NCBI GenBank assembly: GCA_030041545.1
Contig: JASHNQ010000047.1
Coordinates: forward strand, 1-40,389
DNA: 40,389 nt
From: a candidate division FCPU426 bacterium
Lineage (GTDB): Bacteria; Oederibacteriota; Muellerivitia; Muellerivitales; Muellerivitaceae
Reading direction: 5' to 3'
Positions 22,865-26,610 of the stretch are shown here, one piece after another (within the stretch, counting starts at the first letter, position 1; every line of letters begins with the position of its first letter). Both the position numbers and the translations under genes were made by a program. A model generated the notes under the pieces. The model was not told where the DNA came from. It did no database searches and saw only the letters and a list, made by a program, of their open reading frames with translations.

Positions 22865-24925
22865 ATGGCCGAGAACAAAAACTCCATCCCCTGGCTTTTC
22901 TACCTGGGAACCTCCCTGGCCGTCTTCTTCCCCTGCCTGGTCCTGGGCCAAAGCTATTTCCACGACGACCTGCTTCTTTACTACTACCCTTGCCGGGAAT
23001 TCCTGAAGGGCTGGCTGCTGCAAGGCCAATTCCCCCTTTGGAACCCCTACTTGGCCGGTGGCCAGCCGGTTTGGGGGGACCCCTCCTCCTTAAGCGCCTA
23101 CCCTCTCCTCTATCCCACCCTACTGCCGCCGGGCGTTTATGGGTTAAGCCTTTTCTTTTTCATCCACATGGCCCTCGGCGCGGCGGGGATGGATTTTTTC
23201 CTAGGCTCATTCCAGATTTCCGGGGCGGCCCGGAGGGTGGGGGCACTGACCTTCGCTTTATCGGGCTTTTTCTGGTGGGAGATCATCCACCCCAATATCC
23301 TGGCTGCCTTTTGCTGGCTGCCTTGGGTGATGGGATTCCTGGAAAAATTTATCCAAAAGCCCAAGCCCGGAACGGCTTTCGCCCTGGGGCTCGCTTCGGC
23401 CATGCTGTTGCTGTCCGGGCACCACCAGATCAGCCTTTGGGCGGCTTACGGCGGTGTTTTTTATTTTGGCGCCAGGTACCTGCAGTTGAGAAAAGAAATC
23501 CACCGTTCGCCCCCCCCTTGGCTGGCCGGGTTAGGATATTTCCTCTGGGGATTTACGCCCGCGCTTTTGTGGATGGCGCCGGCCCTGGAACTTTTGTTTC
23601 GCTCCGAAAGGTTGAACTCCCCGCTGGACTATTCCACTTTCAACGCGGATTTTTCCCTCGATCCCCGGCACCTGAGCCAGTTCCTCTTTCCAGCCAATCC
23701 CTTGCAGGCCCAAGCGCTTTCCTACCCGGACTACCTGGACGACTGCGGCTGGCTGGGCCTTTGGGCCCCCTTACTAGTTTTGGCGGGGTTGGCGCGCCGG
23801 TGGAGGGATGGGGCGCCACTGGCGGTCCTGGCCCTGTTCTCACTGGCCCTGGCGTTCGGGTCCTACACGCCCCTCCATCACTGGGCCTGCGAATGGCTTC
23901 CGGGGTTCGGCCTGACGCGGTCGCCCAGCCGGTACATCTTCTTTTACACCTTTGGCGGCGCGGCTTTCGCGGCCATGGGTTTTAATCAGGTGGAAACCGC
24001 CTGGCTCCGGAATCGAAAGGCCATCCTTTGCGTTCTCGAAGCGGCCATTGTCCTGCCCTTGGTTGCCGGCAGTTGGATGATCCTCTCCCCGGGCCCGGCT
24101 TCCAATTTCGAGTATTCCGCGCAGATGCCCCCTGTTCAGCGGCTCCAGCAGGCCATCTGCGAAGGCCGGCTTTCGATCGATACCCATATCCCCTATGAGA
24201 CCCGCACCAGCCGGTATCGCTACCTGGCGAAGTTCCCGGCGGATTGCGCCAGCTTGCTGGGCCTCCACACCGCCAGCGGGTATGTCAGCATTAACCTCGA
24301 GTCCTACCGGCAAATCGAAGGCTTGCCGATGGAAACTTTCCTGCGACTGATGGCGGTCAAGGGGCTCTTGACAGGACAGCCCCGGGATTTCGGGCCAGAT
24401 TTCACCCGGGAGGACCTGGAGAATTTCCAGCTTTACAAGGCCAGGGAAGACCGGCCCTTGGTTTGGGTTCTCCCGAAATGGATCGTGGAACCCAATGATT
24501 TGACGGCACTGGCCGCCATGCGCGATCCAGGGTTCAACCCTTACCAAATGGGCTATCTTTCGGAAGGGCTAACGGAAGGCATTGAAAGCCAAGCCGCCCG
24601 GGCTCCCCGGCTATTGCAATGGGAGAAAACGGAGGAAGACCCCAACGAAGAATTTTTCAAAATCCGGCTGGATCAATCCGGCCTGGTTGTTTTTTCCGAA
24701 GCGGCCTATCCAGGATGGAAGGCCTGGGTGGACGGTTCCCCCGCCAAGGTTTATACCGCCGATACCTATTTGAGATGCCTGGCTCTCGGCGCAGGTGAGC
24801 ACGAGGTCCGGTTTTATTACAGGCCTTGGTGGCTGGCGCCCTCCCTCCTGATCGGATTCCTATGGATCATTTCCGTGGGAGTCTGGATTTACTTTCGTTT
24901 TAAGGATGAAAAGGTTTTGAAATAG
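22865..24925 (+). CDS. YfhO-family membrane protein
   Basis: 686 residues; ATG with AAAGG about 8 nt upstream. Long polytopic N-terminal part with the family start (SYFHDDLLLYYYP, then GQFPLWNPYLAGGQPVWGDP). The C-terminal soluble domain ends in the YfhO signature (FSEAAYPGWKAWVDG, about 617, then GEHEVRFYYRPW). YfhO proteins are GT-C-like; Firmicute members add sugars to wall or lipoteichoic acids. Here the acceptor is unknown. It probably handles polyprenyl-phosphate sugars like the other large membrane proteins of the window. Confidence 0.82.
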   Translation: MAENKNSIPWLFYLGTSLAVFFPCLVLGQSYFHDDLLLYYYPCREFLKGWLLQGQFPLWNPYLAGGQPVWGDPSSLSAYPLLYPTLLPPGVYGLSLFFFIHMALGAAGMDFFLGSFQISGAARRVGALTFALSGFFWWEIIHPNILAAFCWLPWVMGFLEKFIQKPKPGTAFALGLASAMLLLSGHHQISLWAAYGGVFYFGARYLQLRKEIHRSPPPWLAGLGYFLWGFTPALLWMAPALELLFRSERLNSPLDYSTFNADFSLDPRHLSQFLFPANPLQAQALSYPDYLDDCGWLGLWAPLLVLAGLARRWRDGAPLAVLALFSLALAFGSYTPLHHWACEWLPGFGLTRSPSRYIFFYTFGGAAFAAMGFNQVETAWLRNRKAILCVLEAAIVLPLVAGSWMILSPGPASNFEYSAQMPPVQRLQQAICEGRLSIDTHIPYETRTSRYRYLAKFPADCASLLGLHTASGYVSINLESYRQIEGLPMETFLRLMAVKGLLTGQPRDFGPDFTREDLENFQLYKAREDRPLVWVLPKWIVEPNDLTALAAMRDPGFNPYQMGYLSEGLTEGIESQAARAPRLLQWEKTEEDPNEEFFKIRLDQSGLVVFSEAAYPGWKAWVDGSPAKVYTADTYLRCLALGAGEHEVRFYYRPWWLAPSLLIGFLWIISVGVWIYFRFKDEKVLK

Positions 24926-25002: not shown

Positions 25003-26610
25003 ATGCCCCAACTGATCGAAACCCCCAGCCAAAACTTCCTTTCCGCCGAACCCAAGGTGACCTTGGTCAACACCTTCGCCAAGCCTTTTGACAACGCGGT
25101 AGCCACTGCCCGAACCTGTTATTCCAGCAAAGGCATCATCACGGCCGAACAGGTGGCGGGGGAGGGCCTGGACGAGGAAAAGCGCGAGGAACGCCGCCAG
25201 AAACGCGACGAATTGGTCCGGTCCATTTACAAGGCGGGCCACCACACCACCCTGCAGCACGCCTCCTTCCAGTTCGCGCTGGAGAACGTGTCCCGGCAGT
25301 TCATTTGGAGCTTCCTGCATAGCCATCCCTTTTACAACTCAGAGCAGGTATCCCAACGCTATGTGACGGTCAACCCCACCCAGATGGCCATGCCGCCGCT
25401 TGAACGGGAAACCGCTAAGGCGTACCTGTCGGCCATCGCCTTGCAAACCCAGGCCTATGAGGAGTTCACCGAGGCCTTGAAGCCCCTGGTGGAGCGGGAA
25501 TACCTGGCCCGGTTCCGCCACGCGGACCCCCAGGGAAAAAAGGTGCTGACGGCGGTACAAAAAAAATCCCAGGAAGTGGCGCGCTACGTGCTGCCCGTGG
25601 CTACCTTCGCTTACCTCTACCACACGGTTTCCGGGCTCACCCTTTTGCGGTACTGGCGGCTTTGCCAGACCTTTGACGCACCGCTGGAGCAGCGCATCGT
25701 GGTGGGCAAGATGGTGGAGGCGGTCTTAAACGAGGCCCCCGAATACCGGGCCATCCTGGAGCAGCCCCTGGCCTTTGAGGCCACGGCCGAGGCCCAGATC
25801 TACGAGGGGTTCCACGCCACGGCAGCCACTCATAAAGCCTTCCGCCAGGAGTTCGACGCCTCCCTGGGCGGCTATATCTCCCGCCTGGTGGATTATTCCA
25901 AGGACGGGGAAGGAATGCTGGCCTCAGCGGTGCGGGAGGTTTTCGGTATGCCCTCCTCCGCCCTGTCCGACGACCAAGCCATCGAATTAGCCTTAAACCC
26001 GGCCAAAAACAAATACCTGGGCGAGACCCTGAACGTCACCACCCACAGCAAGCTTTCGCGGGCGCTCTTCCACCCCCACTACACTTTCCGCAAGAAGATT
26101 TCCCACACCGGGGATTCCCAGGACCAGCGGCACCGCATGACGCCCGCCTCCCGGCCCATCCTGCACGCCCTCACCCTGGATGAACCGGATTATATCGTCC
26201 CCGTGCTCCTGAAGCAGGACAAGGCATTGGAGCGGCGCTTCGCCGAGGTCATGAACAAGAGCTGGGAAGCCATCGGAAAATTGCGGGAAATGGGCGTTTC
26301 CGACGAGTTCGCGTCCTACCTGCTGCCCAACGCTGTGGCGGTTCGTTTCACCGAATCCGCCGACCTTTTGAACCTGCACCACAAGCACGCCATGCGGCTT
26401 TGCTACAACGCCCAGGAGGAAATCTGGCAGGCTTCGGTGGACGAGGCCCAACAGATAAGGGAGGTTCACCCCCGCATCGGCAAATGGCTGCTGCCGCCCT
26501 GTTCCCTCAGGGCCTTCGCGGGCACGCTGCCCAAGTGCCCCGAGGGTGACCGCTTCTGCGGCGTGGTGGTGTGGAAGAAGGATTTGAACGAATACCAGCG
26601 GGTGATTTAA
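25003..26610 (+). CDS. thyX: Double-length FAD-dependent thymidylate synthase-like protein (tandem ThyX)
   Basis: 535 residues, about twice a usual ThyX (about 220-250). ThyX methylates dUMP to dTMP with methylene-tetrahydrofolate, FAD and NADPH. The N-terminal half has GHHTTLQHASFQF (about 80) and NSEQVSQRYV (about 112-121), the second half of the ThyX signature RHRxxSxNExSxRY, but LHS-H replaces RHR. The C-terminal half has SQDQRHRMTPASRP (about 372-385), which keeps RHR but not the following part. Two diverged ThyX domains, each keeping half of the motif, is the simplest reading. No ThyA is seen in the window. Start ATG preceded by AAGAGA. Confidence 0.85.
   Translation: MPQLIETPSQNFLSAEPKVTLVNTFAKPFDNAVATARTCYSSKGIITAEQVAGEGLDEEKREERRQKRDELVRSIYKAGHHTTLQHASFQFALENVSRQFIWSFLHSHPFYNSEQVSQRYVTVNPTQMAMPPLERETAKAYLSAIALQTQAYEEFTEALKPLVEREYLARFRHADPQGKKVLTAVQKKSQEVARYVLPVATFAYLYHTVSGLTLLRYWRLCQTFDAPLEQRIVVGKMVEAVLNEAPEYRAILEQPLAFEATAEAQIYEGFHATAATHKAFRQEFDASLGGYISRLVDYSKDGEGMLASAVREVFGMPSSALSDDQAIELALNPAKNKYLGETLNVTTHSKLSRALFHPHYTFRKKISHTGDSQDQRHRMTPASRPILHALTLDEPDYIVPVLLKQDKALERRFAEVMNKSWEAIGKLREMGVSDEFASYLLPNAVAVRFTESADLLNLHHKHAMRLCYNAQEEIWQASVDEAQQIREVHPRIGKWLLPPCSLRAFAGTLPKCPEGDRFCGVVVWKKDLNEYQRVI

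Follow-up and report, generated by a model that had tools for sequence, protein, structure and literature searches.

A tandem ThyX protein whose two halves keep complementary sets of active-site residues

The tandem thyX gene and its two Thy1 domains

The window is a stretch of 40,389 bp from a candidate division FCPU426 bacterium (contig JASHNQ010000047.1, positions 1 to 40,389), in which an intact frame of 1608 bases encodes the protein P0001 (Table 1). When the halves of P0001 were scanned alone, the N-half (residues 1-266) matched the Pfam family Thy1 (PF02511) with 110.1 bits and the C-half (from position 25843 on) with 82.2 bits, against a cut-off of 24.8, and the whole protein passed the NCBIfam equivalog TIGR02170 (101.7 bits; cut-off 87.9). 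With two Thy1 domains within one ORF, P0001 is a domain-duplicated (tandem) ThyX, as the sequence-only reading of this stretch had proposed. The contiguous RHR-x7-S motif was found in neither domain by itself and appears only when both halves are combined, so the protein is filed as a variant and not as a canonical ThyX.

A chance or frameshift artefact is ruled out by the intact frame and by an identity of 54-87% to P0001 across 77 relatives from many phyla in alignment A3, which holds 78 of the 82 long-form proteins described below (L052, L080, L110 and L111 are excluded from it). We also ran phmmer with P0001 against PDB sequences, and the haemoglobin fragments that were returned with weak E-values were discounted as chance. 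Nearby genes encode a YfhO-like membrane protein (22865-24925) and a HAD hydrolase, and a third neighbouring ORF has no family assignment.

Table 1. Coordinates of the tandem thyX gene, its domains and the active-site positions (TM, T. maritima ThyX numbering; N and C, the two halves)
Feature	Position	Strand	Support
Tandem thyX gene (P0001), 535 aa	25003..26610	+	ATG at 25003, stop ends at 26610
N-terminal Thy1/ThyX domain, S-x-RY (dUMP) loop side	25063..25743	+	PF02511 positions 2-191, 107.3 bits
His80 and Thr82 (TM H53, T55), N-half	25240..25248	+	Long-form alignment: H and T each 82/82 in N
Ser-His-Pro replacing RHR, N-half	25321..25329	+	Alignment
Ser117-Gln-Arg119-Tyr120 (TM S88-x-R90-Y91), N-half	25351..25362	+	N 124/124 tandems, C 0/124
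Arg194 (TM R147), N-half	25582..25584	+	N 124/124, C 0/124
C-terminal Thy1/ThyX domain, RHR/R174 (flavin) side	25882..26472	+	PF02511 positions 1-190, 79.4 bits
Gln373 (TM Q75), C-half only	26119..26121	+	Long form: C 82/82, N 0/82
Arg376-His377-Arg378 (TM R78-H79-R80), C-half	26128..26136	+	C 124/124, N 1/124
Arg465 (TM R174), C-half	26395..26397	+	C 124/124; long-form N-half has Cys or other
Gln471 (TM Q180), long-form C-half	26413..26415	+	C 82/82, N 0/82; nearly all long N-halves have Pro

The AlphaFold2 model of P0001, made with 78 sequences, has a mean pLDDT of 89.2 and a pTM of 0.88 over both halves. The N-half of the model (residues 13-267) matches ThyX crystal structures, also in Foldseek, with a best Z of 14.5 to 3hzg_A (rmsd 3.8 over 216 residues), a Z of about 14 to TM0449 and M. 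tuberculosis (Mtb) ThyX, and an rmsd of ~2.1-2.7 over ~190 residues to the TM0449 chains. The rows listed by the structure search with the whole model cover the N-half, and none of them covers the C-half. For the C-half, in which most blocks are above 85 pLDDT, the fold assignment is based on three things: the Pfam match, a similar order of predicted strands and helices, and a comparison of its profile with that of canonical ThyX (E 1e-19). By sequence (Pfam), both halves are recognisable ThyX, and a ThyX fold in one half only was one of the two outcomes that the sequence-only reading had named as speaking against it. A model of the short form introduced below (pLDDT 49.3 from 8 sequences) was set aside.

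For the window genome (3.8 Mb; 98.54% complete), profile searches found no second PF02511 locus, no PF00303 ThyA and no PF00186 dihydrofolate reductase. Dihydrofolate reductase is often missing in ThyX-dependent organisms. P0001 is the sole recognisable thymidylate synthase of this genome, which rules out that it is an odd paralogue beside a normal enzyme. Within the window's phylum, 16 of 45 genomes contain the tandem, and a ThyA match was found in none of these 16. The search for ThyA and ThyX also covered 50 of the 75 further long-form genomes, in all of which tandems were the only ThyX above the cut-off; one of them has two tandems, another has an extra sub-threshold ThyX match, and five have a weak partial PF00303 match (33-40 bits). 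Among the Chloroflexota tandem genomes a partial PF00303 match (50 bits) was found in 1 of 32. Altogether 91 of 97 tandem genomes, many of unknown completeness and a shared genome being counted once, have no PF00303 match, and the matches in the other 6 are weak and partial.

Division of the active-site residues among 124 tandem proteins

We numbered the residues after T. maritima (TM) ThyX and aligned the tandem halves with 10 single-domain ThyX, one of which is the T. maritima stretch. Where canonical ThyX carries RHR followed by E/Q-x-S-x-RY, the N-half of P0001 reads SHPFYNSEQVSQRY, and the corresponding stretch of the C-half, RHRMTPASRPILHA, has RHR and lacks S-x-RY. In total, the N-half keeps His80, Thr82, Ser117-x-Arg119-Tyr120 and Arg194, which are equivalent to H53, T55, S88/R90/Y91 and R147, while the C-half keeps Gln373, Arg376-His377-Arg378 and Arg465, equivalent to Q75, R78-H79-R80 and R174, and each half is without most of the active-site set of the opposite half. 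That the signature motif is split in this way, with S-x-RY in the N-half and RHR in the C-half, had been noticed from the sequence of P0001, and it is certain now that the split is strict in all 82 long-form tandems. The division is also wider than was noticed then: the equivalents of H53, R147, R174 and Q180, far from the motif, are partitioned likewise.

The 124 tandems that we compared are 82 of the long form, 31 from Chloroflexota and 11 of the short form (3 of them from viral contigs). Scanning with the long-form alignment retrieved 250 relatives; the best 80 of these 250 come, by their record titles, from 16 named phyla, together with 6 unplaced records. The short tandem (~500 aa) is found in other families of the window's phylum, with the identical split. 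As for Chloroflexota, rows read by eye gave two Thy1 matches in one ORF in 32 of 81 genomes; 31 of these tandems were added to the comparison, and the remaining one (L062) is counted in the long set. We excluded from the counts L032-L036 (contigs shared with other loci), L025 (interrupted frame), L027 (partial) and the second-domain loci L002 and L028-L031.

Among the tandems compared, RHR is present in the C-half of all 124 and in the N-half of one, and the S-x-RY loop is present in the N-half of all 124 and in the C-half of none. R147 follows the loop (N-half 124 of 124; C-half 0 of 124), and R174 is present in the C-half of all 124; among the long-form proteins, this last count partly reflects selection by the scan pattern CYNAQEE. 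The joint partition of RHR, loop, R147 and R174, which span ~100 positions, holds in 123 of the 124 tandems, all of them homologues and hence not independent events. The Chloroflexota set, which was picked by Pfam family and blind to the motif, could be sorted into five motif types (named A-E), and all 31 of its members have the loop in the N-half and RHR in the C-half.

The long form divides further positions in the same strict manner. H53, T55, S88, R90, Y91 and R147 are each present in 82 of 82 N-halves, where Q75, R78, R80, R174 and Q180 are each found in 0 of 82. Q75, R78, H79, R80, R174 and Q180 are each present in 82 of 82 C-halves, which have neither H53 nor R147 (0 of 82 each) and in nearly all of which the positions of S88, R90 and Y91 are substituted. 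H79 is common to both halves, position 55 is Ser or Thr in 61 of the 82 C-halves, and the equivalent of TM R165 (Mtb R190) is missing from both halves in the 82 aligned tandems. The positions predicted to be dead are strongly conserved as well, for example SHP and its surroundings in the N-half.

Some of the distant tandem forms have Asp at position 53 of the N-half and Asp or Glu at position 75 of the C-half, and forms C and E carry His at position 53 in both halves. R174 or Lys is also aligned, beside a gap, in several of the distant N-halves, so that R174 cleanly divides the halves in the long form only. The mapping of the distant forms is based on MAFFT and motif anchors, because our small home-made canonical profile (hmmsearch) was weak on some N-halves. 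As a control, we inspected single-domain ThyX. All nine complete copies from the window's phylum (L003-L011) keep both parts, and so do 29 of 30 from Chloroflexota, in which L141 has RHN.

The exception to the partition is L166: its N-half contains a complete RHRLAAYTQHSGRY, and the loop is gone from its C-half. Its sister L168 has QHR in the N-half. L166 resembles an intermediate in which the motif of the N-half is still intact, and the two proteins suggest that the C-half loop was lost first.

The split may have arisen repeatedly across the tandem forms, by convergent subfunctionalisation, which concerns its origin and not its mechanism; we give this a minor but real chance. An earlier and smaller tree did not reject separate duplications of the long and short forms (AU p 0.63 and 0.65), and the long-form N-half is weakly placed (support 46 for all N-halves together). 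On the other hand, the polarity is the same in all seven forms distinguished, and reversed polarity, which would have indicated convergence, was sought in the 31 Chloroflexota tandems and not found. In the main tree, for which 68 sequences of half-domains and single domains were used, the short form and types A-E together have their N-halves in one starred clade (97) and their C-halves in a second (95), and the inner order of the two clades is similar. The long C-half groups with the C clade (support 89). Profile comparison of the long with the short form also pairs like with like (N-N, E 1e-15; C-C, E 2e-7), with hardly any match between N and C. A single ancient duplication is the simpler reading, for which the tree places the long C-half well (89) and the long N-half only at 46.

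A predicted composite site

The site of single-domain ThyX is built from several subunits. For the M. tuberculosis enzyme, a review of ThyX structures (PMC6514825) assigns the FAD contacts of one subunit (A) to its own RHR and to S71/R190 from subunit B. For dUMP, it lists R95/R199 from A and R87/S105/R107 from C, and Tyr108, also from C, forms a lid. By our alignments, RHR corresponds to R78-R80 of T. maritima, S71/R190 to 55/165, R95/R199 to 78/174, and R87/S105/R107/Tyr108 to 70/88/90/91. For PBCV-1 ThyX, a passage of PMC3498832 assigns Gln75/Arg182 to monomer A and Ser88/Gln89 to monomer B, and H53 is described in part of PMC11940539 as supplied by a third monomer. In the tandems, the residues of type A are in the C-half and those of type C in the N-half, and the H53 of the third subunit is likewise in the N-half. 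As RHR/R174 and S-x-RY of one published site belong to different subunits, the two halves would correspond to two sides of one composite site.

We consider it very likely that P0001 is an active ThyX working as an obligate asymmetric pseudo-dimer with a composite site, and both fused copies seem to be needed to make one working site. A pseudo-dimer of complementary halves with asymmetric sites had been suggested in the sequence-only reading, and the residue prediction made subunit by subunit, which holds in 123 of 124 tandems, speaks for it. From the sequences and the published structures of single-domain relatives, we infer activity, dimerisation, the arrangement of chains and the number of sites as follows. 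An internally duplicated ThyX would have become an obligate asymmetric pseudo-dimer, in which the C-half would act as the subunit that holds FAD via RHR and contacts dUMP via R78/R174, and the N-half as the one whose S88-R90-Y91 loop covers dUMP. The N-half would double as the third subunit, supplying the H53/T55 helix.

In the published tetramer, a different subunit provides each of these three contributions, so a tetramer-like assembly would need two chains (N1, C1, N2, C2). If the tetramer is conserved, each site would consist of one C-half and the N-halves of both chains, and the assembly would be a dimer of pseudo-dimers in which two composite sites are formed and the two reciprocal positions of the four are dead. 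Such a dimer with two sites, each C+N+N, appears reasonably probable to us. Two features qualify the assignments: the loss of the R165 equivalent from both long-form halves means that not every canonical FAD contact is preserved, and Ser/Thr55 in long C-halves together with His53 in both halves of forms C and E makes the assignment of the third subunit less clean than the other two. A bolder version, which we regard as rather doubtful, is that all tandems stem from one ancient duplication and form an obligately asymmetric class in which the dead positions may have gained a role, such as regulatory nucleotide binding or an order of substrate binding.

Alternatively, one half could be catalytic alone and the other structural, which would require a new hold on FAD if the N-half is the active one, and a new dUMP loop if it is the C-half. 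The N-half scores higher against the Thy1 profile (110 bits; 82 for the C-half) and carries the catalytic Ser/Tyr, and in L166 it retains the full motif. However, RHR, R174 and (in the long form) Q75/Q180 are invariant in the C-half, just as S-x-RY and R147 are invariant in the N-half, and a half that serves for structure only is not expected to hold exactly the active-site residues that the other one is missing, which makes this reading improbable. It is very improbable that P0001 is no longer a thymidylate synthase and that its degenerate halves serve another nucleotide- or flavin-binding role, as the divergence of both halves and the R165 equivalent gone from both in the long form might suggest, since no other thymidylate synthase is recognisable in the 98.54% complete window genome or in most tandem genomes and the residues of one complete site are strictly retained.

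Known systems and further tandem loci

Single-domain ThyX (PF02511; TIGR02170), as in TM0449, M. tuberculosis and PBCV-1, shares the fold of the N-half and the Pfam family of both halves of P0001, and most of its active-site residues match P0001 only when the two halves are pooled. In canonical ThyX, a homotetramer, each polypeptide carries every active-site residue and the four sites are identical, whereas the fused domains of P0001 have complementary subsets, so that four domains are expected to form no more than two composite sites. A domain-duplicated ThyX in Chloroflexi and "a few other species", which "has not been characterized", is noted in PMC3224940 (2009); it has the same duplicated architecture as P0001, and the passage on it does not mention a complementary division. 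The complementary split is shown here in Chloroflexota and many other phyla, and the literature searched, which left most subscription papers outside, yielded the 2009 remark on duplication and no description of the split.

In trypanosomatid deoxyhypusine synthase, paralogous subunits share one active site. The likeness to P0001 lies in the reciprocal loss of catalytic residues in duplicated partners, leaving one composite site per pair; the difference is that deoxyhypusine synthase has separate paralogous chains and another fold, while the partners in P0001 are fused. The ThyX of C. trachomatis (~530 aa) was reportedly enzymatically active in the work of Griffin et al. in 2005. Should this protein prove to be such a tandem, the activity of the architecture would already have been demonstrated.

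ThyX is essential in many bacteria and has been proposed as an antibiotic target. Its three-subunit site is hard to dissect because any mutation affects all four sites. With natural complementary half-sites, each side of the site could be mutated separately, and the tandem ThyX offers a two-plasmid split-enzyme test of the subunit roles. It may also represent a route from an obligate homotetramer to a division of labour, of which the N-halves of L166 (full motif) and L168 (QHR) look like snapshots.

Several loci deserve a separate description. L025 (G030:C218), from the family of the window genome, has a long-form frame broken by an in-frame TAG between the motif halves, with open frames of 391 and 163 aa, and neither another ThyX nor a ThyA was found in its genome, which is 94% complete; the TAG is either a sequencing error or the mark of a disabled gene. 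L176 (G140:C13:36500-38500), a single Thy1-like ORF of 319 aa, carries MLNTNAQSSRA where the ThyX motif would be expected; its genome encodes a tandem ThyX as well. In the genome of L055 (G063), two contigs each carry a tandem ThyX gene, and the two genes differ (open frames of 646 and 526 aa); this could be due to a mixed bin or to a true second copy.

A search of viral contigs for the long-form tandem gave no encoded relative, and the search for the short form gave three. Two of the short-form proteins, L112:2944-4494 and L113:3001-4503, have the same complementary split, and several proteins in their surroundings match PHROGs of unknown function. They are encoded on IMG/VR contigs of 371,739 and 469,617 bases respectively, which are possibly very large phages.
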